A DNA stretch of 64,000 bases. It comes from Ralstonia pickettii (lineage in GTDB: Bacteria; Pseudomonadota; Gammaproteobacteria; Burkholderiales; Burkholderiaceae). A program made the position numbers and the translations under genes. The stretch spans positions 62,001-126,000 of the forward strand of contig NZ_MCGB01000092.1 of NCBI RefSeq assembly GCF_001699815.1, given 5' to 3'. Shown here piece by piece: positions 1 through 61,993 of this stretch (position 1 is its first letter; each line of letters starts with the position of its first letter). Below the pieces are notes generated by a model. It had not been told where the DNA came from. It worked only from the letters and a program-made list of their open reading frames with translations, and ran no database searches.

Positions 1-1401
1 CGCGCGGCCCGGTGCGGCCAGGATGAAGCCCCATTCACCAAAGGACGGCACCAGCGCGTGGTACGGCCACGTGCGGTAACCGGCTTCCTTCAGCGTCGCA
101 TCCACACACCAGTACGAACGCGGCGCGAAATAGGGCGACGTGGCTTGAATGACAACCAGGCCCGTATCCGCCACATGGCGCGACAGCAGTCGATAGAACG
201 GCACCGAATACAGCTTGCCGATGCTGAAGTTGGACGGGTCCGGAAAATCGACGATGGCCACATCGAACATGTCGGTGGCGGTCTGCATCCATTGCGCAGC
301 ATCGGCGTTGACCACCGTCACGCGCGGGTCACTGAACGCATGCTGATTGAGCGCAACCAATGCCTCGGCGTGCGAGAACAGGTTCGTCATGCGTGGGTCC
401 AGGTCGACCAGCGTGACGTGCTCGATTTGCGGGTACTTCAGGATCTGCCGCAGCGCGAGTCCGTCGCCGCCGCCCAGCACCAGCACGCGCCGCGCACCGC
501 GCACGGCTTCGAGCGCAGGCAGCACCAGCGCCTCGTGATAGCGGTATTCGTCGCGCGAGGAAAACTGCAGGTTGCCGTTGATGTACAGGCGCAGGTCGTC
601 TTTCCAGCGCGTGACGACCAGCCGCTGATACGGCGAGGAAATCGCGTGGATGATCTCGTCGCCAAAGAGCGCGCGCTCCGACCAGTGCGTGAGCTTGTCT
701 GACGCGCCAAAGCCCGCGAGCAATGCTGCCGCTACCGCGCCGGCGCGCCACGCCATCGCGGTACGCATGCGGGCCGAAAGCGCCAGCTCGGCGCGGAAGT
801 GCCAGAGCGTCCAGACCGCAATCGCGGTATTGAACAGGCCGAACAGGAAGCCGGTGCGCACCAGCCCCAGGCGCGGCGCCAGCACCAGCGGAAACAGCAG
901 CGACACCGCCAGCGCGCCAAGGTAATCGAACGTCAGCACGCGGCTGACGAGATCGGAGAACTTTGCCTGCCGCCGATGCAGCATGCGCATCACCAGCGGG
1001 ATCTCCATGCCGACCAGTACGCCGATCACCGTCACCAGCGCGTACAGCACCAGGCGGAACGGCGCCGATTCCAGCGCAAACAACGCAAACAGCGCCGCGG
1101 CAGACACGCCGCCAAACAGCCCGACCAGCAATTCCAGATCGACAAAGCGGGCAAGCAGCGCGTCATCGGCCACGTAGCGCGAGAGCCACGAGCCGATGCC
1201 CATCGCAAACAGATAGGCGCCGATGATGGAAGAGAACTGCAGGATGGAATCGCCCAGCAGGTACGAAGCCAATGCCCCGGCAATCAATTCGTAAGCGAGC
1301 CCGCACGAGGCCACCACAAAGACGGCGAGGACCAGCAAGGCATTGCCGCGGCCCGAAGGCTGCGTAGGTTCGTATGTGGCGTCAGGCTGCGGCGTCGACA
1401 T
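1..1401 (-). CDS. Spermidine synthase-like aminopropyltransferase with N-terminal membrane domain (partial, runs off left edge)
   Basis: The first 467 residues are visible and no stop is reached before the window edge. Residues about 20-230 form several hydrophobic helices, so the protein sits in the inner membrane. A soluble Rossmann methyltransferase-fold domain follows. It shows the SAM-site glycine motif GGGDG, the acidic end of beta-2 (VDLDP) and a DFPDPS motif equivalent to the catalytic D-x-x-D of aminopropyltransferases. Family knowledge: the enzyme would transfer aminopropyl from decarboxylated SAM to an amine. The divergent operon starting at 1579 encodes SpeD, the enzyme that makes that donor, which supports a shared pathway. 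The real acceptor is unknown; membrane-fused members need not make spermidine. Confidence 0.85.
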   Translation of the reverse strand, partial: MSTPQPDATYEPTQPSGRGNALLVLAVFVVASCGLAYELIAGALASYLLGDSILQFSSIIGAYLFAMGIGSWLSRYVADDALLARFVDLELLVGLFGGVSAAALFALFALESAPFRLVLYALVTVIGVLVGMEIPLVMRMLHRRQAKFSDLVSRVLTFDYLGALAVSLLFPLVLAPRLGLVRTGFLFGLFNTAIAVWTLWHFRAELALSARMRTAMAWRAGAVAAALLAGFGASDKLTHWSERALFGDEIIHAISSPYQRLVVTRWKDDLRLYINGNLQFSSRDEYRYHEALVLPALEAVRGARRVLVLGGGDGLALRQILKYPQIEHVTLVDLDPRMTNLFSHAEALVALNQHAFSDPRVTVVNADAAQWMQTATDMFDVAIVDFPDPSNFSIGKLYSVPFYRLLSRHVADTGLVVIQATSPYFAPRSYWCVDATLKEAGYRTWPYHALVPSFGEWGFILAAPGRA

Positions 1402-1578
1402 GCTGCGGGGGTGGAAAATGAAGGGGCGTTAACAAACGGCGGATGCCAAGGCGAGCGCGATTGTGCCGCCTTTTTTCCCGGCCTGCGAGCCGCCTGGTGC
1501 GGGGCTGCATCGGGGGGTACGCAAGCGGCGCATCAGCCGCTATAGTGGCGCCACCTATGTACTGCTCGGCCTCTACCC

Positions 1579-1977
1579 ATGCCCGACATGACCGCTCCCG
1601 TGATCGCCTATGCCTCGCACCTGCTGGCGGGCGCCGTGGTGTTCTCCGGCTTCTTTTTCGTCTATCTGCGCCTGACGCCGTATGACGAGTTCAAGCTGAT
1701 CCGCGAAGGCAATATTGCGGCGGCGCTGTCGCTGTCCGGTGCGCTGCTCGGCTTCGTGCTGACCATTGCGTCGAGCATCACGCATGCCGATGGCTTGGTG
1801 CCGTTCCTGTTCTGGGCGGTGATGGCGTCGGTGGTGCAGCTGATCGTCTTCCTGGTGCTCACGCGGCTGATGCCGGACTACCGGCTGCAGATCGAGCACA
1901 ACAACATCGCCGCCGGTATGCTGTTTGGCGTGAGCGCGCTGGCCGTTGGCGTGATCAACGCCGCGTGCCTGTCGTGA
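1579..1977 (+). CDS. DUF350 (YjfL-type) inner-membrane protein
   Basis: A 132-residue, strongly hydrophobic protein with about four membrane segments and short polar loops (YDEFKL, HADGL, PDYRLQIEHNN), typical of DUF350 proteins. It is the first gene of an operon with SPFH, DUF4178 and SpeD genes; the next start lies 49 bases downstream. A TATAGT -10-like hexamer at 1541-1546 is the best promoter candidate, but its -35 is weak. In E. coli the DUF350 protein YjfL sits beside a PspA homologue and a glutathionylspermidine-synthase-like ATP-grasp gene, so a link between membrane stress and polyamines recurs. Molecular function is unknown. Confidence 0.8.
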   Translation: MPDMTAPVIAYASHLLAGAVVFSGFFFVYLRLTPYDEFKLIREGNIAAALSLSGALLGFVLTIASSITHADGLVPFLFWAVMASVVQLIVFLVLTRLMPDYRLQIEHNNIAAGMLFGVSALAVGVINAACLS

Positions 1978-2026
1978 CCTTGTCCTGATTGTTCCTGCCC
2001 CGCGAGTCATCGCGAAGGAGTCTGCT

Positions 2027-3076
2027 GTGAGCCTGTCCAGTTTCATCAAGAAGCAGTTCATCGACATCCTGCAATGGACGGAGAGCGAAGACGGCGTGCT
2101 CGCCTGGCGCTATCCGATGCAGGACATGGAAATCCAGAACGGCGGCACCCTGGTCGTGCGCGACTCGCAGATGGCGATGTTCGTCAACGAAGGCCAGATC
2201 GCCGACGTATTTGGCGCCGGCACCTTCAAGCTGACCACGCAGACGCTGCCCGTTCTCACGTACCTGAAGAACTGGGACAAGCTGTTCGAGTCCCCCTTCA
2301 AGTCCGACGTCTACTACTTCAGCACGCGCCAGCAACTGGGCCGCCGCTGGGGTACGCCGCAGCCCGTGACGGTGCGCGACAAGGATTTCGGCATGATCCG
2401 CCTGCGCGCCTTTGGCGTGTACGCCTACCACGTGGCCGATCCGAAGCTCTTCTACCAGCAGGTGAGCGGCACACGCGACATCTACACCGTGGATGAAGTC
2501 GAGGCGCAACTCGCCCCCGTCATCATGGGTGCGATGGCGACGGCGTTTGGCGAATCCGGCGTGCCCTTCCTGGACCTGGCCGCCAACCAGATGCTGATGT
2601 CGAACAAGGTGCGCGAGGCGCTGCTGCCGCAGTTCACGCAGTACGGCCTGGCGCTCGACAGCTTCCAGGTGTCCAGCGTCACGCTGCCGGACGAACTGCA
2701 GGCCGCGCTGGACCGCCGGATCAGCATGGACATGACCGGCGACATGCAGCGCTTCACGCAATACCAGACGGCCGAATCGCTGCCGCTGGCGGCACGCAAC
2801 GAAGGCGGCATCGCCGGTACGGGTGCGGGTTTGGCGGCAGGGCTGGCAATGGGCCAGGCGATGGCCGACAGCCTGCGTACCGCTGTGCAGGGCAACGCTG
2901 GCGGTGCGGCTGCTCCTGCAGCGCAATCTGCCGCCGCCGTCCCAGCTGCTCCGGCAGCGGACGACCCCACCGCACGCCTGGCCAAGCTCAAGGAACTGCT
3001 CGACAAGGGCCTCATCACGCAAGCGGACTTCGATGCCGGCAAGGCTGCCGTGCTGAAGGCGCTGACCGGAGGCTGA
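2027..3076 (+). CDS. SPFH-domain protein with C-terminal SHOCT motif
   Basis: A 349-residue protein starting at GTG with AAGGAG at 2015-2020. Residues about 30-240 resemble the SPFH/band-7 family often named 'virion core protein-like'. They are followed by an Ala/Gly-rich linker and a short helical C-terminal SHOCT-like motif (LAKLKELLDKGLITQADFD, about 315-340). SPFH proteins scaffold membrane microdomains, while SHOCT motifs are small oligomerisation or tethering modules. No N-terminal membrane helix is evident, so association with the membrane would be peripheral, possibly through the DUF350 partner. It sits between DUF350 and DUF4178 genes. The exact role is inferred from context only. 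Confidence 0.8.
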   Translation: MSLSSFIKKQFIDILQWTESEDGVLAWRYPMQDMEIQNGGTLVVRDSQMAMFVNEGQIADVFGAGTFKLTTQTLPVLTYLKNWDKLFESPFKSDVYYFSTRQQLGRRWGTPQPVTVRDKDFGMIRLRAFGVYAYHVADPKLFYQQVSGTRDIYTVDEVEAQLAPVIMGAMATAFGESGVPFLDLAANQMLMSNKVREALLPQFTQYGLALDSFQVSSVTLPDELQAALDRRISMDMTGDMQRFTQYQTAESLPLAARNEGGIAGTGAGLAAGLAMGQAMADSLRTAVQGNAGGAAAPAAQSAAAVPAAPAADDPTARLAKLKELLDKGLITQADFDAGKAAVLKALTGG

Positions 3077-3163
3077 GCCCCGGCCCGCTGATCGGATGAC
3101 CGGGCGGCACCGCAAGCCGCCCGTTTTTCTGCGCCATTTTTCGCGCAATCGAACGACCTGACC

Positions 3164-4609
3164 ATGTTTCATGCCAACTGCCCGGCGTGTGGCGCGCCGG
3201 TGGAACTGAAGTCTGCAGCTGCCGTCATGGCGGTGTGCAGCTTCTGCAAGAGCACGTTGCTGCGCGACGGCGAGACGCTTTCCGACATCGGCAAGATGTC
3301 CGCCGTGCTGGAGGACTACGCACGCGTGCAGATCGGCACCACCGGGCGCTACAAGAACAAGGCGTTCACAATTGTCGGCCGCATCCAGCTGCGTTACGAC
3401 GCGGGTTTCTGGAACGAGTGGTACGTGCTGTTTGACGACGGCTCCGATGGCTGGCTGGCGGAAGCGTCCGGACAAGTCACGATGACCTTCGCGCGCGGTA
3501 CGCCTGCCAATGCGGTCGCGTTTGAGGGGCTGCGCCCGGGGCAGCTGTACGATGCCGAGGGCAAGCAGTTCACGCTGTCCGACGTGCGCGAAGCCGATTG
3601 CACCGGCGGCCAGGGCGAATTGCCGTTCCGCGTGGGCGAAGGCTGGCACGCGCGTGTGGCCGATGGCCGCCGCGAAGACGCTTTCATCACGCTGGACTAC
3701 TCCGATGGCACGGCGCCAGCGCTCTACGTGGGCGAAGCCACCACGCTCGATGTGCTCGAGTGCCAGCTTCTGCGCACCGACGCCGAGATCAAGGAAACCG
3801 CCGGCCGCATTCCGGGCAAGCTGACGAATCTCGATTGCCCGCAGTGCGGCACATCGATCCCATTCAGCCCCGGCGTAACGGGCCACGTGCTGTGCCCCGG
3901 CTGCGGCGCGGCCATCGATGCGGCCACGCCGCGCGGCGACATCATCGCGCGCGCACGGTCGGTGCCGCAGGTGGCCACCACGCTGGAGCTGGGCGACAAG
4001 GCGCTCATCGATGGCCTGCAATGGCAGGTGATCGGCGTGATGCGCCGCGCGGTGGTCGACGGCGGCGGCGAATGGTTCGAATACCTGCTGTACACGCCCA
4101 AGCGCGGTTTCAGCTGGATGGTCGAAACCGATGACGGCTGGTTCCGCGCCAACGTGCTCGACCGCTGGCCCACCCGGAACGACGGGCGCACCGCGGTGCT
4201 CGACGGCAAGGTCTACGCCCGCGACGAGGACTACACCTCGCGCGTGACCTACGCCGCCGGGGCCTTCAACTGGCGCGTGCAAACAGGTGACCAGACGCGC
4301 GTTGTTGAATACACCGCCGGCGGGGAAAGCTTGGCTGCGGAGAGCGACGCGCATGAGCTCACGTGGTCGAAGAGCACGCCCGTGAGTGCCGCGCAGATCA
4401 AGGCCTGGTTCGGCAAGGTTGTCGCCGAGCCGGCCAAGGCGTCGTCGAATTACATGACGGTGGCGGTGGTCGCCTGTGTGCTGCTCGGTCTGCTGAACCT
4501 CGTGCCGTTCTTCATGGCGCCGGGCTCGGTGTTTGGTATCACGTTCTTCGCGGCGTTGCTGTTGCTGGTGCCCGCGTGGCTGGTCGCCAAGATTGGGGGC
4601 GGGGAATGA
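3164..4609 (+). CDS. DUF4178 protein with zinc ribbons and C-terminal membrane helices
   Basis: A 481-residue protein. It opens with a zinc-ribbon pair (CPACG near residue 6 and CSFC near residue 27), continues with DUF4178-like beta-rich repeats containing W/Y-rich segments (NEWYVLFDDGSDGWLAEA), and carries a second ribbon in the middle (CPQCG and CPGCG, about residues 225-250). The last 45 residues hold two hydrophobic helices. The tandem ribbon-plus-DUF4178 layout suggests a cytoplasmic sensor or adaptor anchored to the membrane. Its stop overlaps the start of the next gene (ATGA), so the two are translationally coupled. No catalytic motif was recognised. Confidence 0.8.
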   Translation: MFHANCPACGAPVELKSAAAVMAVCSFCKSTLLRDGETLSDIGKMSAVLEDYARVQIGTTGRYKNKAFTIVGRIQLRYDAGFWNEWYVLFDDGSDGWLAEASGQVTMTFARGTPANAVAFEGLRPGQLYDAEGKQFTLSDVREADCTGGQGELPFRVGEGWHARVADGRREDAFITLDYSDGTAPALYVGEATTLDVLECQLLRTDAEIKETAGRIPGKLTNLDCPQCGTSIPFSPGVTGHVLCPGCGAAIDAATPRGDIIARARSVPQVATTLELGDKALIDGLQWQVIGVMRRAVVDGGGEWFEYLLYTPKRGFSWMVETDDGWFRANVLDRWPTRNDGRTAVLDGKVYARDEDYTSRVTYAAGAFNWRVQTGDQTRVVEYTAGGESLAAESDAHELTWSKSTPVSAAQIKAWFGKVVAEPAKASSNYMTVAVVACVLLGLLNLVPFFMAPGSVFGITFFAALLLLVPAWLVAKIGGGE

Positions 4610-4794
4610 AGAACTGGTTCGTTCTCTATGCCGTGGCCGTGGTGATTGGCGCCACCTATATGGACTGGAAGGCCGGCTTTGCCGCGCCGCGCACGCCGTC
4701 GTACGGCAGCAGCTCGGGCGGGTCGTCGTCTTACTGGGGCGGCTCATCGGGCGGCAGCGGTTATGGCGGTGGTTTTAGCGGGGGCCACAAGTGA
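4606..4794 (+). CDS. Small membrane-anchored protein with Gly/Ser/Tyr-rich tail
   Basis: A 62-residue protein. It has one N-terminal hydrophobic helix (NWFVLYAVAVVIGATYMDW) and a low-complexity tail of Ser, Gly and Tyr (SSSGGSSSYWGGSSGGSGYG) ending in GGHK. Its ATG overlaps the DUF4178 stop and its own TGA overlaps the GTG start of speD, so it is held inside a tightly coupled operon, which is the main argument that it is real. The single helix would place the flexible tail at the membrane surface. I do not recognise a family. The C-terminal His and Lys could matter if the tail is a substrate, but that is speculation. Confidence 0.7.
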   Translation: MKNWFVLYAVAVVIGATYMDWKAGFAAPRTPSYGSSSGGSSSYWGGSSGGSGYGGGFSGGHK

Positions 4795-5216
4795 CGCGCA
4801 CCGATGCAGCGCTTTCTGTGGAAGAAGCACCCGCCGCCGTGGGCGAGCATCTGCTGCTCGATCTGTATGGCGTTGCGCCTGTGCTGTTGCGCGATGCGGC
4901 CACACTGGAAACCGCACTGCGCGATGCTGCCAACGCACTGGGTGCGACCATCCTGCATGCACATCTGCATCGCTTCGATTCCGTGCGCGCCGGTTTGCCC
5001 GGTGGCGAGCAGGGCGGCGTGACCGGTGTGTTGCTGCTCGCCGAATCGCATCTTTCGATTCACACCTGGCCCGAGCACGGGTTTGCCGCCATCGACGCGT
5101 TCATGTGCGGCACCGGCACAACGCATGCCGCGCGCGCCGTGTTCGAGCGCGCGTTGGCGCCGGAACGGGTTGACGTGCGCGTCGCCCGCCGCGGCGGCGA
5201 GCCCGCGCCCCACTGA
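4791..5216 (+). CDS. speD: S-adenosylmethionine decarboxylase proenzyme, short SpeH-like form
   Basis: A 141-residue pyruvoyl enzyme precursor that makes decarboxylated SAM, the aminopropyl donor. The diagnostic self-cleavage motif is present (ESHLSIHTWPE, residues 85-95): cleavage is expected between Glu85 and Ser86, with Ser86 becoming the pyruvoyl group. His91 and Cys106 in the FMCGTG motif match the catalytic residues of the class 1B (Bacillus/Thermotoga) enzymes. The start is GTG, overlapping the previous stop, with no independent Shine-Dalgarno. Being last in the DUF350/SPFH/DUF4178 operon, and opposite a membrane aminopropyltransferase, it looks dedicated to that cluster rather than to bulk spermidine synthesis. 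Confidence 0.9.
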   Translation: MTRTDAALSVEEAPAAVGEHLLLDLYGVAPVLLRDAATLETALRDAANALGATILHAHLHRFDSVRAGLPGGEQGGVTGVLLLAESHLSIHTWPEHGFAAIDAFMCGTGTTHAARAVFERALAPERVDVRVARRGGEPAPH

Positions 5217-5217
5217 T

Positions 5218-6264
5218 CTACACCGGCTGTCCGTCGAATATCACGCGATTGCGCCCCAGCCGTTTGGCGGCCAGCAGGGCGGCATCGGCACGCATGATGA
5301 GGTCTGTCGGCGTGCACAGGTTCTTCTCCGGCTCGCAGCTTGCCAGGCCTACGCTGATGGAGCTGCGGATGTTGGCTTCCGGCGTGGCGATCTCCAGCGA
5401 CTCCACCGCGCTGCGTAGGCGTTCCGCAATGTCGCTGGCCTGCAGTGTGGTCGTATCGGGCAGAACCACCAGGAATTCCTCGCCGCCGTAGCGGCCCACT
5501 GCATCGATGGGGCGCGAATTCACCCGCAGCGTGCGAGCGATCTCAACCAAGACCGCATCGCCCACGGGGTGGCCGTAGGTATCGTTCACGCGCTTGAAGT
5601 GGTCAACATCCACCACCAGCAATGAAAGCGGCTGCCCGTACCGCATCGCGTGGCCGCACTCGCGCGTGAGCAGTTCCATCGCGGCGCGCCGGTTCCAGAT
5701 GCCCAGCATCGGATCCGTCAGGCTTTCGTGGCGCGCAATCTGCAGCTCGGTCAGGATGGAGCGCTGCGTTTCGCTCAGTTCGCGCTCGCGAAATCCCGAT
5801 TCCACCCAACTGGCCAGGTCATTGAGCAGCTCCCGCTCGGCCTGGTCAAACGACCGCGGCTTCTTGTCGAGCACGCAGAGCGTGCCCACGGCATAGCCAG
5901 ACAGATTCCTGACCGGCCGCCCAGCATAGAAGCGGATATGCGGCGCGCCCGTCACGAGCGGGTTGTCGGCAAAGCGCGGGTCGGCCTTGGTGTCTGGAAT
6001 GACGAGCATCTGGTCTTCGGCCACGGCATGGCCGCAGAACGAGATGTCGCGCCCGGTCTCGCGCACGTTCAAGCCGATACAGGATTTGAACCATTGACGC
6101 TGGGCGTCGATGAGCGACACGAGCACAATCGGGGCGTCGAACACGCGCTTGGTCGTGCGCGTGACGCGGTCGAACAACTCCTCGTCGGGTGTGGAGAGCA
6201 ACAGCATGTCTTGCAGCGAGGCAAGACGTTCGGGTTCGTTCGTGGGGATGGGAGCGGGTTTCAT
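5218..6264 (-). CDS. GAF-GGDEF diguanylate cyclase
   Basis: A 348-residue cytoplasmic protein. Residues 10-160 form a GAF sensor domain (FDAPIVLVSLIDAQRQWFKS and DISFCGHAV motifs). Residues 180-345 form a GGDEF domain with the active site GGEEF at 260-264, plus an RxxD inhibitory site (R251-D254) exactly five residues upstream. It should therefore be an active, product-inhibited c-di-GMP synthase. I chose the ATG at 6264 because MKPAPIPTNEPERLASL matches the usual start of this GAF family; an upstream ATG at 6354 would add 30 untypical residues. It lies downstream of fumC in the same direction, about 100 bases apart. The GAF ligand is unknown. Confidence 0.88.
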   Translation of the reverse strand: MKPAPIPTNEPERLASLQDMLLLSTPDEELFDRVTRTTKRVFDAPIVLVSLIDAQRQWFKSCIGLNVRETGRDISFCGHAVAEDQMLVIPDTKADPRFADNPLVTGAPHIRFYAGRPVRNLSGYAVGTLCVLDKKPRSFDQAERELLNDLASWVESGFRERELSETQRSILTELQIARHESLTDPMLGIWNRRAAMELLTRECGHAMRYGQPLSLLVVDVDHFKRVNDTYGHPVGDAVLVEIARTLRVNSRPIDAVGRYGGEEFLVVLPDTTTLQASDIAERLRSAVESLEIATPEANIRSSISVGLASCEPEKNLCTPTDLIMRADAALLAAKRLGRNRVIFDGQPV

Positions 6265-6364
6265 GCGCAAGGCGCACCGGCCGGGCCGGCGCTCTTGAAA
6301 CGGGCAATGGAAAAGGAAAAGGGATAGGCCGCGCATAGCAAGCCGCGGGCCCATGATAGTTTAC

Positions 6365-59304: not shown

Positions 59305-60210
59305 TTACACCATGCGCTGCCCACCCCAAAGCAACTGTTCATAGATAAAGCACTGCAGCAGCATCTTTTGGGCGGCGACCAACTCGACGAATTCCACGCC
59401 ATATTGATACACGTTGGGCAGGTCGGCCGGTTTTTCACTGCGCACCAGCGCAGCAGCCACCAGTTCGGAATGGTAGTCGCGCGTTTTCACCCGGAAGCGC
59501 AGACGCGCCGGTGCGCCGCTCACTTCCAGCCGATGCGCCGAGCGGAACGACGCGCCCGTGGTGCTGATGTCGGAGATATGGATCATGCGTGGCGGGTCGC
59601 CGCTCACCAGCATCTTGCCGACCACGTTGGCGCGCACGCGCAGCGATTTGCGCAACGCGCGGTTCTTGATCCGCCGCGGCGGCGACAACACGACGTATTC
59701 GAACGGGATGCGGCACACCGCCATCACCGTGCATTCGAAGCTGGCGATGCCCTCGCCCGAGAAAGCGTGGACTTCCACCAGTTCGTCCTTGACCGGCATG
59801 ACCGTGCGGCCGCTGTCGGTGGGCATGGTGATGAGCAGATGGCGCTGCGGGCTGTAGCCCATCACGCGCGCGGCACCCTTGGTCTGGCCGGCGCCTGCGG
59901 TCAGGCGCACGGTCAGCATGCCGCCGGGGCGCAGGCCCAGCAGTTCCATGGCGATCGTGCGTTCACCGTCAGGGTCGTCGCCCATGTCCGGGAACATCGT
60001 GTTCGGGAACTGCGTGTTTGCAAACGCCGGTGCAGGCGCGGGCGTGCCGTCCGCCAGCCGATGCGGGCGGTGCAGCGTGCACAGCAGGTCGATCTCCTCC
60101 GGCGAGTGGATGACGTCGCCCTTCGGGACGAGCAACTGCCCGTCGGCGTCAAGCATCGGCCACGGCAGGGGAATCGCAAGCGGAATGTCGAGAGGTTGAA
60201 GTTCGAGCAT
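59305..60210 (-). CDS. ycgR: YcgR-type PilZ flagellar brake protein
   Basis: A 301-residue cytoplasmic protein with a YcgR-N-like domain (about 85-175) and a C-terminal PilZ domain. The c-di-GMP site residues are intact: R187-x3-R191 (RKSLR) and D214-I-S216-x2-G219 (DISTTG). In enterobacteria YcgR binds c-di-GMP and slows the flagellar motor. Its N-terminal 80 residues are an extra Pro-rich segment found in the Burkholderiaceae form. A good sigma28 promoter lies upstream (60251-60277), tying it to the flagellar regulon. Confidence 0.85.
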   Translation of the reverse strand: MLELQPLDIPLAIPLPWPMLDADGQLLVPKGDVIHSPEEIDLLCTLHRPHRLADGTPAPAPAFANTQFPNTMFPDMGDDPDGERTIAMELLGLRPGGMLTVRLTAGAGQTKGAARVMGYSPQRHLLITMPTDSGRTVMPVKDELVEVHAFSGEGIASFECTVMAVCRIPFEYVVLSPPRRIKNRALRKSLRVRANVVGKMLVSGDPPRMIHISDISTTGASFRSAHRLEVSGAPARLRFRVKTRDYHSELVAAALVRSEKPADLPNVYQYGVEFVELVAAQKMLLQCFIYEQLLWGGQRMV

Positions 60211-60250
60211 GGCAATGGGGAGCCAACAGCCGCGCAGGACCCCACGTTTC

Positions 60251-60277
60251 TATACGGCCAAATGTTGCACAACTTTA
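60251..60277 (-). promoter_or_regulatory. Sigma28 (FliA) promoter of ycgR
   Basis: On the minus strand TAAAGTTG-N11-GCCGTATA matches the consensus TAAAGTTT-N11-GCCGATAA with 7 of 8 at -35, GCCG intact at -10 and exact spacing. It ends about 40 bases upstream of the ycgR ATG at 60210. Confidence 0.7.
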
Positions 60278-60329
60278 AGCGCACTTTATTGTGCAGGGTC
60301 GGTGGCACGCGAGTTGCAGCCCGGGAGCC

Positions 60330-60842
60330 ATGATCGAGCACAATGTCGGTTCCAAAGTGGATGGGGTGGGCACGCGCATGACGTCTCGGCGGCATTTCTG
60401 GGCGGCGGTGGAGCAGTTTGCTCGCTATGTCGTCATCGGCGGCGGCGCAACGCTGGCGCACTATGTGGTGCTGTTCGGGCTCGTGCAGGTGGGGGTCTCG
60501 CCGTGGCGGGCGTCGGTGGCGGGCAGTGTGATCGGTGCAACGCTCAATTACTTCATCAGCCGGCAGGCCGTCTTCAACAGCACACGTGGGCATATCGGCG
60601 CGATGGTGCGCTTCGGCCTGGTGGCCTTTCTCGCGTTGGGGTGCAATGCGACCATCATGGCCGCCGGCCTGGGGATCGGTTTGTATTACCTGATTGCGCA
60701 GGTGTTCGCCTCGTCCATCACGGCCATCTTCAACTTCCTGGTGCACCGGTACTGGACGTTTCGTGACGCCGATGCCGTCGGCGCGCCAACGGAGCCGCAA
60801 CCGACCATCGTGCCGGCACGGCCCACGCACAACGGGCCCTGA
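60330..60842 (+). CDS. GtrA family membrane protein
   Basis: A 170-residue protein with four transmembrane helices and the GtrA pattern (QFARYVVIGGGATLAHYVVLFGLVQVG; GSVIGATLNYFISRQAVF; ITAIFNFLVHRYWTFRDA, the typical NFxxxRxxVF end). GtrA proteins flip or handle polyprenyl-linked sugars for O-antigen, teichoic acid or exopolysaccharide modification. An alternative start at 60378 (GGGGTGGG upstream) would trim 16 residues. No glycosyltransferase partner is adjacent. It is divergent from ycgR. Confidence 0.85.
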   Translation: MIEHNVGSKVDGVGTRMTSRRHFWAAVEQFARYVVIGGGATLAHYVVLFGLVQVGVSPWRASVAGSVIGATLNYFISRQAVFNSTRGHIGAMVRFGLVAFLALGCNATIMAAGLGIGLYYLIAQVFASSITAIFNFLVHRYWTFRDADAVGAPTEPQPTIVPARPTHNGP

Positions 60843-60858
60843 GGCGCTGCCGTGCGCG

Positions 60859-61341
60859 TTAATGCCGGCTGGCCGGGCTCTGCACGCCGGCGCCAGTTTC
60901 CGTAGCGAAGGTCACGTCGCCAATGCCGTCAGCGGGCGGGACGGGGGCATCGTCCCGCAGGCGCTCCACCACCAGGTGAATGTCGATCACATCGGCCACG
61001 CCGGACGCCTCCAGCGAGACAAGTGCCGCCAGTTGCGCAATCGCAAACGTATCCGCGAGCAGCGGCGTATCGTCGTGGAGATCGCCGGCAACGCGGGCAG
61101 TTGGGGTCTTGCCGGCCGTGCGCGTGGGCTGCTGCGCCGTTTCACGTGCGCGATAGGCGAAATAGGCGTCGGCAAAGTGCACGCGGTGCGCGTCGAACAC
61201 GCGCACTGCGGCGGTAAGGGCATCGTCCACCCAAGCTGGATCGACTGGCGTCGTTCCGGGCTCGGTACCTTCGGGCAGGCCCGCTAGCTTGAGCGCATAC
61301 CGATGCGTCTGCGTGCCGGGGGCGACAAAGCTCAATTCCAT
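60859..61341 (-). CDS. Hypothetical protein
   Basis: A 160-residue soluble, acidic, Ala-rich protein (MELSFVAPGTQTHRYALKLAGLPEGTEPG; VFDAHRVHFADAYFAYRARET; TFAIAQLAALVSLEASGVADVIDIHLVVERL). GGGAGG precedes the ATG at 61341. No signal peptide or membrane helix. I recognise no family. Its 3' end converges with GtrA. Confidence 0.6.
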   Translation of the reverse strand: MELSFVAPGTQTHRYALKLAGLPEGTEPGTTPVDPAWVDDALTAAVRVFDAHRVHFADAYFAYRARETAQQPTRTAGKTPTARVAGDLHDDTPLLADTFAIAQLAALVSLEASGVADVIDIHLVVERLRDDAPVPPADGIGDVTFATETGAGVQSPASRH

Positions 61342-61993
61342 ACGACCTCCCACAACCGCGTGCGTTGTTGCCGCGGCTCGCCGTGTTTGAATTCGCCCCC
61401 CTGAAGCGATATTGAAGAATAGTAACGGAGCCGCCCGTTTTCGCGTTTCGTCCTTCCGGATGAGGTTGGGGCCTTGTTTTCACCTTAAGACATTCACAAT
61501 GTGGAAATTGCGGCCCGCCGGCGTGGCAAACGGTTGCGTGTTGGCAGTGTCTACTCGACCTAACCGAACGGCTAGCTGCTTCGCGGCGGGGGGACGGTGT
61601 ACAGTTGTGAAGTGTCCGGCGACGCTGGGCAAGAGTCGACAATCGACGTCGACAAACGCAGACGGGAATGACGCGGGGCGCGTTTCCTTCGCGTCATCTC
61701 GCGCACGAGGGGACCCAAAGCGCGCTCGCGGTCCATGTCCCCTCGCGGGAAGGGATTGCCCCGTTAACTCGCGGCTTCTATAGTCCGCCTCGATTCGTGC
61801 GCTTGCAACGCACCAAGGTCTGTCAGTGCCAGCTGCCAACTGGTCCACGCAGACCACGAGACCGGTTACGGGGATCACGCCAACGGCCACCGCGCGCCCC
61901 CGACGCGACCATTGCGTCATAGGGTTCCCGGCGGCGCGATGGCCACCACATCAACCACCCCCGGGACTGCCGCATTCGCGAAACAGCATCGCC
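61342..61993. other. Long intergenic region upstream of the PAS-GGDEF gene
   Basis: 652 bases without a convincing gene. It holds the divergent control regions of the hypothetical protein and the cyclase, and one good promoter (61756-61784). Short open frames here have no family similarity. Confidence 0.5.
61756..61784 (+). promoter_or_regulatory. Sigma70 promoter candidate of the PAS-GGDEF gene
   Basis: TTGCCC (61756-61761) and TATAGT (61779-61784) with 17-base spacing. It predicts an untranslated leader of about 200 bases before the ATG at 61994. Confidence 0.45.

Follow-up and report, generated by a model that had tools for sequence, protein, structure and literature searches.

A lysine-ended membrane tail as candidate aminopropyl acceptor in the SpeD, DUF350 and DUF4178 gene cluster of Ralstonia pickettii

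Clusters in which a membrane-fused spermidine synthase-like protein (MFS-SpdSyn) is encoded with S-adenosylmethionine (SAM) decarboxylase (AdoMetDC, SpeD) and DUF350 were reportedly delineated by Li and colleagues in 2019. A non-polyamine (non-putrescine) acceptor is said to have been proposed there with the substrate left open, and the substrate of these membrane-fused proteins has reportedly stayed open since. A cluster of this kind, comprising a membrane aminopropyltransferase (APT), DUF350, SPFH-SHOCT, DUF4178, a short peptide and SpeD, was analysed at the start of a 64,000-nucleotide stretch from Ralstonia pickettii (hereafter the window; genome G000, contig C92, positions 62001-126000). 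It shares the APT fusion, SpeD and DUF350 with the clusters of that 2019 work, while a Lys-ended tail as the acceptor is proposed here. The study of Ravi et al. (2024; PMC11237479) presents an operon in which a novel lipoprotein is encoded together with DUF350, DUF4178 and a 7TM-spermidine-synthase-like protein, and suggests monitoring of the polyamine level or of the aminopropylation of other substrates. A sequence-only reading of the window, in which lipids or the Gly/Ser-rich peptide may receive aminopropyl groups or polyamines at the membrane as part of an envelope-stress system, thus lies near published thinking. The cluster type is already described, and the new part is the Lys-ended peptide as its likely substrate. 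Neither a Lys-ended peptide of this kind nor an aminopropylated protein or lysine was found in the open-access literature, in a search of which little was aimed at the modification.

The reading that we favour, with a confidence only somewhat above even, is that the cluster aminopropylates the C-terminal Lys of a membrane-anchored tail. The tail was surveyed in 132 loci, made up of 52 loci and 80 named ones, the latter being the best-scoring of 580 confirmed matches in one scan. With a threshold of 25 bits, DUF4178 was detected in the flank of 115 loci and was absent from that of 17. A first inspection of the short open reading frames (ORFs) following DUF4178 revealed in most loci a peptide of about 45-65 residues with an N-terminal hydrophobic helix, nearly always ending in His-Lys. 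Among the 115 DUF4178 loci, 100 harboured a free Lys-ended peptide only and one (L118) a free and a fused tail, while the DUF4178 protein itself ended in -HK in ten further loci. In the remaining four, the contig of L108 breaks off, and three cases missed by the selection rule were settled by hand: the peptide of L204 ends in -TGK, that of L085 lies directly before SpeD at about 1.7 kb from DUF4178, and that of L091 (genome G304) immediately precedes SpeD on a different contig (L129).

The 101 free peptides display a median pairwise identity of 22%, and the terminal Lys is the sole invariant column of their alignment. The last two residues are -HK in 86 peptides and -GK in 15. The -GK ends were found in L131, from the same class, and in 14 named loci titled Acidobacteria, Gemmatimonadetes and Myxococcota (Roseisolibacter, Bryobacterales and Corallococcus among them), and the -HK ends in Proteobacteria, in Solitalea (Bacteroidetes) and in two bins, one of Acidobacteria (L201) and one labelled Fibrobacteres (L193). 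Across phyla the penultimate residue alternates between His and Gly, and the terminal Lys is constant. Fused -HK tails were counted in 11 DUF4178 proteins, L118 included, and with the exception of L118 they occur in loci without a detected free peptide. Inspection by eye showed the DUF4178 hairpin followed by an extra hydrophobic stretch and the tail in L112, L118, L173 and L174, a single hydrophobic stretch with the tail closing the DUF4178 protein in L092, L101, L109, L113, L124 and L211, and a DUF4178 likewise fused to the tail in L196. From the 15 named loci without a flanking DUF4178, seven were traced into their genomes; DUF4178 was present in all seven and the Lys-ended tail in six, the contig of the seventh breaking off with no tail seen there.

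The window peptide belongs to this family, defined as short N-anchored peptides or DUF4178 tails with Lys as last residue. Its C-terminus reads FSGGHK, and no Pfam or NCBIfam match was obtained. Its ATG overlaps the stop codon of DUF4178, and the GTG start of SpeD overlaps its last codon and stop. Several relatives have shed most of the Gly/Ser linker yet keep the terminal Lys, and Gly/Ser richness was therefore rejected as the functional feature. Of the two targets put forward by the sequence-only reading, comparison thus favours the peptide over a lipid, but with the C-terminal Lys rather than Gly or Ser as the candidate site. A duplicated arrangement was observed in Solitalea agri, where DUF4178 and the Lys-ended peptide are present in two tandem copies (L210:5485-8707).

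Two trivial origins of the terminal Lys were considered and rejected. The first is chance: among 2376 other helix-bearing short ORFs of the loci, taken in all frames, Lys is the last residue in 129, and HK or GK forms the end in 12, three of which are genuine extra copies of the tail (L085, L129, L210). In the neighbouring proteins, Lys is last in 1 of 123 APT, 0 of 66 DUF350, 1 of 92 SPFH and 3 of 95 SpeD sequences, and in 16 of 131 DUF4178 sequences, 11 of which are the fused -HK tails. The second is an AAATGA or AAGTGA overlap with the next start codon. A TGA stop overlapping a start codon was found for 57 of the 101 peptides, but the other 44 have a TAA or TAG stop without any overlapping start and still end in Lys, so the overlap does not force this residue; its codon is AAA in 53 peptides and AAG in 48. 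As a modest control, no such peptide was detected in 11 SpeD loci without adjoining DUF4178, of which six are just 3.3 kb long, two (L063 and L133) come from one genome and one (L128) from a genome with the cluster elsewhere.

The distribution of the genes was analysed in a sample of 300 genomes of the order, 48 of which contain DUF4178 (29 of 135 genera), and the family PRK03612, to which the APT belongs, scored above its cut-off in an identical list of 48. SpeD (AdoMet_dc) was found in 47 of the 48 genomes with DUF4178 against 57 of the 252 others, DUF350 in 47 against 32, and Band_7_1 at E 0.001 in all 48 against 56. The sole genome of the 48 without SpeD and DUF350 is G385, an assembly in 680 contigs; a tally by genome gives a Lys-ended tail in 47 of these 48, the 48th case being a cut-off contig of the same G385. 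Within about 16 kb around DUF4178, searches with the window proteins recovered the APT in 41 of the 48 genomes, DUF350 in 37, SPFH in 35 and SpeD in 32, two contigs being shorter than 16 kb and half-length DUF350 being able to escape detection. Since the genomes with the APT and those with DUF4178 are identical, the gene set is not a chance assembly but a real unit, loosely linked, and the co-occurrence count proposed along with the sequence-only reading confirms the cluster noted there. In the wider class, DUF4178 was found in 5 of 229 genomes, one of the five below the cut-off, and it was present in 12 of 12 genomes picked among the sources of the named APT loci. Clusters of this kind are spread over several phyla, which removes the concern that the genes might be adjacent in a single lineage only.

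These patterns also bear on the possibility that the His-Lys or Gly-Lys end is recognised as a signal by a chaperone, a protease or a membrane partner, without ever undergoing covalent modification. C-terminal signals are common, and the tail adjoins or is fused to DUF4178 more constantly than it adjoins SpeD. A signal would however predict neither the APT and DUF4178 in the same genomes nor a displaced tail in front of SpeD, and the exchange of His for Gly at the penultimate position across phyla, with Lys fixed, speaks against it as well; we consider this explanation improbable. Both the shared set of 48 genomes and the displaced tails still located directly before SpeD (L085, G304) were counted in favour of the tail as the aminopropyl acceptor.

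The six genes at the window start were located by the sequence-only reading where ORFs and Pfam matches also place them (Table 1). The APT diverges from the plus-strand genes DUF350, SPFH-SHOCT, DUF4178, peptide and SpeD. The DUF4178 protein of the window also matches zinc ribbons weakly and is hydrophobic towards its C-terminus. Against solved chains, weak hits only were obtained for DUF350 (best E 0.32) and DUF4178 (best E 0.54). Convergent with SpeD, a GAF-GGDEF protein (putative diguanylate cyclase) is encoded at 5218-6354 on the minus strand and looked unrelated. Among other loci, co-directional clusters (L084:9201-9413, L096:6374-6589 and others) carry a half-length DUF350 of 70-75 residues between the peptide and the APT, and the DUF350 of divergent-type clusters has about 130 residues. 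DUF4178 is split into two frames in L194, L198-L200, L204-L206, L208, L209, L213 and L214 (Acidobacteria, Gemmatimonadetes), and in these loci SpeD lies just before the DUF4178 frames, mostly after SPFH.

Table 1. Features of the cluster at the window start. Plain positions refer to the window; L002 is a locus numbering that extends past the window start; E, expectation value; aa, amino acids.
Feature	Position	Strand	Remark
APT, PRK03612 type, 7 hydrophobic segments and Spermine_synth domain	1..1401	-	cut by window edge
Full APT gene, 525 aa	L002:7824-9401 = G000:C92:61824-63401	-	467 aa within window
DUF350 (YjfL-like) membrane protein, 132 aa	1579..1977	+	Pfam PF03994, E 4.7e-35
SPFH (Band_7_1) with C-terminal SHOCT, 349 aa	2027..3076	+	PF13421, E 6.2e-73; SHOCT, E 4.4e-07
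DUF4178 protein, 481 aa	3164..4609	+	two PF13785 stretches, E 5.4e-28
62-aa peptide with N-terminal hydrophobic helix, Gly/Ser linker and His-Lys end	4606..4794	+	ORF and comparison
Codons CAC AAG, terminal His and Lys of the peptide; Lys is the predicted aminopropyl acceptor	4786..4791	+	
SpeD, S-adenosylmethionine decarboxylase, SAM_DCase_Bsu type	4791..5216	+	AdoMet_dc PF02675, E 5.3e-33
Flavin amine oxidase, Tat signal	L002:6202-7824, G000:C92 ~60202-61824	-	outside window, directly downstream of APT

The part of the APT lying in the window, on the minus strand, matched Spermine_synth of Pfam (PF01564) with E 2.3e-32, and the full protein scored 709.9 bits against PRK03612 (NF002956, cut-off 472) over residues 10-522 of 525. 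Among the best 80 of 580 matches, its closest named relatives are from Burkholderiaceae bacterium 26 (99% identity) and Ralstonia soli (98%). In an alignment of 46 fusion sequences, whose catalytic domain was compared with seven canonical SpeE, the SpeE motifs GGGDG, DE..YHE and D..DP are retained, and consistent departures from SpeE were found elsewhere, e.g. at N275, Q279, F280, R287, Q419 and F454. Among solved structures, the catalytic domain matched spermidine synthases as well as polyamine aminopropyltransferases, most closely 7xif (E 2.7e-29). From these comparisons we infer a working aminopropyltransferase with an altered acceptor site. In the membrane domain, the polar residues E38, D51, Q55, E133, R139 and D159 are invariant in the 46 sequences. 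So strongly conserved a polar membrane domain would fit a membrane-bound substrate, and other substrates of aminopropylation are mentioned by Ravi et al. (2024; PMC11237479); the APT could hence act on the head group of a membrane lipid or on a different molecule of the envelope, with the Lys-ended tail as an adaptor or regulator. Such a role leaves unexplained why Lys is the last residue in all 101 free peptides and in 11 fused tails whose remaining sequence diverges, and we regard it as unlikely, though worth keeping in view.

The SpeD of the window scored 112.2 bits against TIGR03330 (cut-off 75.65) and contains ESHLSIHTWPE, in agreement with the SpeD motif ESH..H[TS]WP. The cluster could in principle form a membrane-bound route of ordinary spermidine synthesis, the only one of the organism. 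The NCBI family PRK03612 indeed carries the name polyamine aminopropyltransferase, and no NspC was found in the gene content of the genome. The name may lead readers to presume spermidine synthesis. Yet the APT falls far under the cut-off of the SpeE equivalog TIGR00417 (112.5 against 249.55 bits), and genomes G224, G378 and G476 hold an additional SpeE-like gene with a higher Spermine_synth score adjoining their SpeD. Fusions of the MFS-SpdSyn type are said, from the 2019 work, not to replace SpeE, a speE mutant having reportedly not been complemented. R. pickettii is reported to make putrescine and 2-hydroxyputrescine (PMC7857480). Bulk spermidine synthesis was rejected as the main role on these grounds, and an ordinary spermidine route appears highly improbable. 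The sequence-only reading, which held bulk polyamine synthesis not to be the purpose of the cluster, is to that extent upheld, although a cluster serving as the sole spermidine route still fits the gene content.

The side of the membrane on which the tail and the enzyme reside was addressed by charge and motif analysis. The free peptides are more positively charged before the helix in 65 of 101 cases and after it in 7, the rest being equal, and a lipobox-like motif is present in 11 of 101. On these grounds the tail most likely faces the outside, in an N-inside/C-outside orientation. Seven transmembrane (TM) helices were read from the APT alignment, and positive loops would put the N-terminus inside; provided that the seventh segment, a weak one, crosses the membrane, this suggests an outside location for the catalytic domain. 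AlphaFold2 modelling of the L137 relative (99% identical to the APT; 46 sequences) gave a mean pLDDT of 87.3 and a pTM of 0.70, with a separate helix 210-232 preceding the catalytic domain; taken together, these features are compatible with either side for that domain. The flavin amine oxidase encoded next to the APT (PF01593, E 7.5e-08) displays a twin-arginine motif by eye, and no solved chain matched it at E 0.01. Under a strict distance rule such an oxidase adjoins the APT in 77 of 123 APT loci; among these 77, 64 have a twin-arginine-like start and 27 a lipobox-like Cys. The oxidase is probably part of the system.

In the proposed mechanism, SpeD, a clear member of its family and presumably active, would provide decarboxylated SAM. 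The membrane APT would then move the aminopropyl group onto the side-chain amine of the terminal Lys, the invariant residue of the tail. The side chain of Lys ends in a four-carbon amine arm resembling putrescine, the usual aminopropyl acceptor, and for this reason a Lys at a flexible chain end would be a sensible acceptor. Depending on the lineage, the acceptor would be the short peptide or the C-terminus of DUF4178, with the N-inside/C-outside arrangement pointed to by charge and lipobox-like motifs. In loci that encode it, the exported flavin amine oxidase might act on the modified or free amine and convert it, for example, to an aldehyde, this being the weakest step. DUF350, SPFH-SHOCT and DUF4178 would serve to retain the modified tail in the membrane or to assemble it there. 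A more daring version, to which we give little credence, would place the reaction on the outer side of the inner membrane: a periplasmic catalytic domain would generate N6-(3-aminopropyl)lysine at the C-terminus of the anchored tail, decarboxylated SAM would be carried across the membrane by the 7-TM domain or by DUF350, and the Tat-exported flavin amine oxidase would oxidise the product. DUF350 systems in general would then each attach a polyamine-type arm to the C-terminal end of some small envelope protein, and the type of enzyme would correspond to the final residue (aminopropyl transfer for Lys, ligation for Gly).

Several points weigh against modification of the tail and have to be set beside the evidence above. 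Where more than one ORF is eligible, the selection rule for free peptides prefers one that ends in Lys, so that the background of 5.4% is the fair yardstick, and near relatives are over-represented because the named loci are the best 80 of 580. SpeD is found beside DUF4178 in just 32 of the 48 order loci, though 47 of the 48 genomes encode it; SPFH is often encoded away from DUF4178 (35 of 48 linked); and the flavin oxidase is next to the APT in only 77 of 123 loci, some of the misses being due to contig ends or the ORF rule. As the genome's only AdoMet_dc and only Spermine_synth matches lie in the cluster, its gene content leaves room for a spermidine role. The terminal Lys could be a recognition signal. 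A catalytic domain outside would require decarboxylated SAM to cross the membrane, and we know of no precedent for this compound outside the cytoplasm; a domain inside would require the tail to be modified prior to export. Finally, L132 (genome G139) encodes a related APT with 31% identity, and no Lys-ended tail was recognised there, nor were the other five window proteins matched within its 16 kb. Instead, genes resembling DUF2170, PspA, a short DUF4178 (E 1e-4, below the cut-off) and ribbon-helix-helix proteins were recognised by eye at L132:5503-9587, following the names of Ravi et al. (2024), and this variant may use a different substrate.

A conserved Lys-ended tail encoded beside the donor-making enzyme brings the substrate question within reach of mass spectrometry. 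The aminopropyl group would shift the mass of the C-terminal Lys by +57.058 Da, and carbamidomethylation or an added Gly by +57.021. Owing to this closeness and to the few trypsin sites in the tail, routine proteomics could have missed the modification. If true, aminopropylation of the tail would be a new protein modification based on aminopropyl transfer, and the DUF350, DUF4178 and SPFH-SHOCT genes would be explained as parts of one envelope system.

The locus can finally be compared with three further known systems. The PspA-CesT/Tir operon group 2 of Ravi et al. (2024; PMC11237479) is marked by PspA and CesT/Tir (DUF2170); neither was matched among the seven proteins scanned here, and the cluster has SpeD, SPFH-SHOCT, the flavin oxidase and the Lys-ended peptide. 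The E. coli operon yjfIJKLMC shares DUF350 (YjfL) with the window cluster, and like it the yjf and ygiBC genes pair a polyamine-transferring enzyme with a protein whose tail is rich in Gly. RefSeq designates YjfC and YgiC as peptide--spermidine ligases, and the DUF1190 proteins YgiB and YjfM of E. coli K-12 that adjoin them both end in -GG. Ligase and -GG tail there thus stand against aminopropyltransferase and Lys tail here, and no ATP-grasp ligase domain was detected in the seven cluster proteins scanned, which sets them apart from the YjfC/YgiC type. In a DUF1190 survey, 2 of 143 genomes matched, both homologues ending in -GG, and the -GG parallel therefore rests on five proteins. An operon at L136:7899-11213, with genes named by eye rather than by family scan, comprises SpeD, a SpeE-like protein, a frame ending in SSGGG, an ATP-grasp-like protein and DUF350, and is perhaps a DUF350 system of the polyamine-ligase type with its own spermidine supply; in L217 no ligase gene was seen before the contig ends. 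Gly-ended tails with ligase-type systems, where these are readable, and Lys-ended tails with the aminopropyltransferase may be taken as a lead from a small sample. A third parallel is deoxyhypusine, a polyamine-derived amine arm set on a lysine side chain of eIF5A, from which the predicted modification would differ in that deoxyhypusine is formed by another enzyme with spermidine as donor, on an internal Lys and in a cytosolic target.

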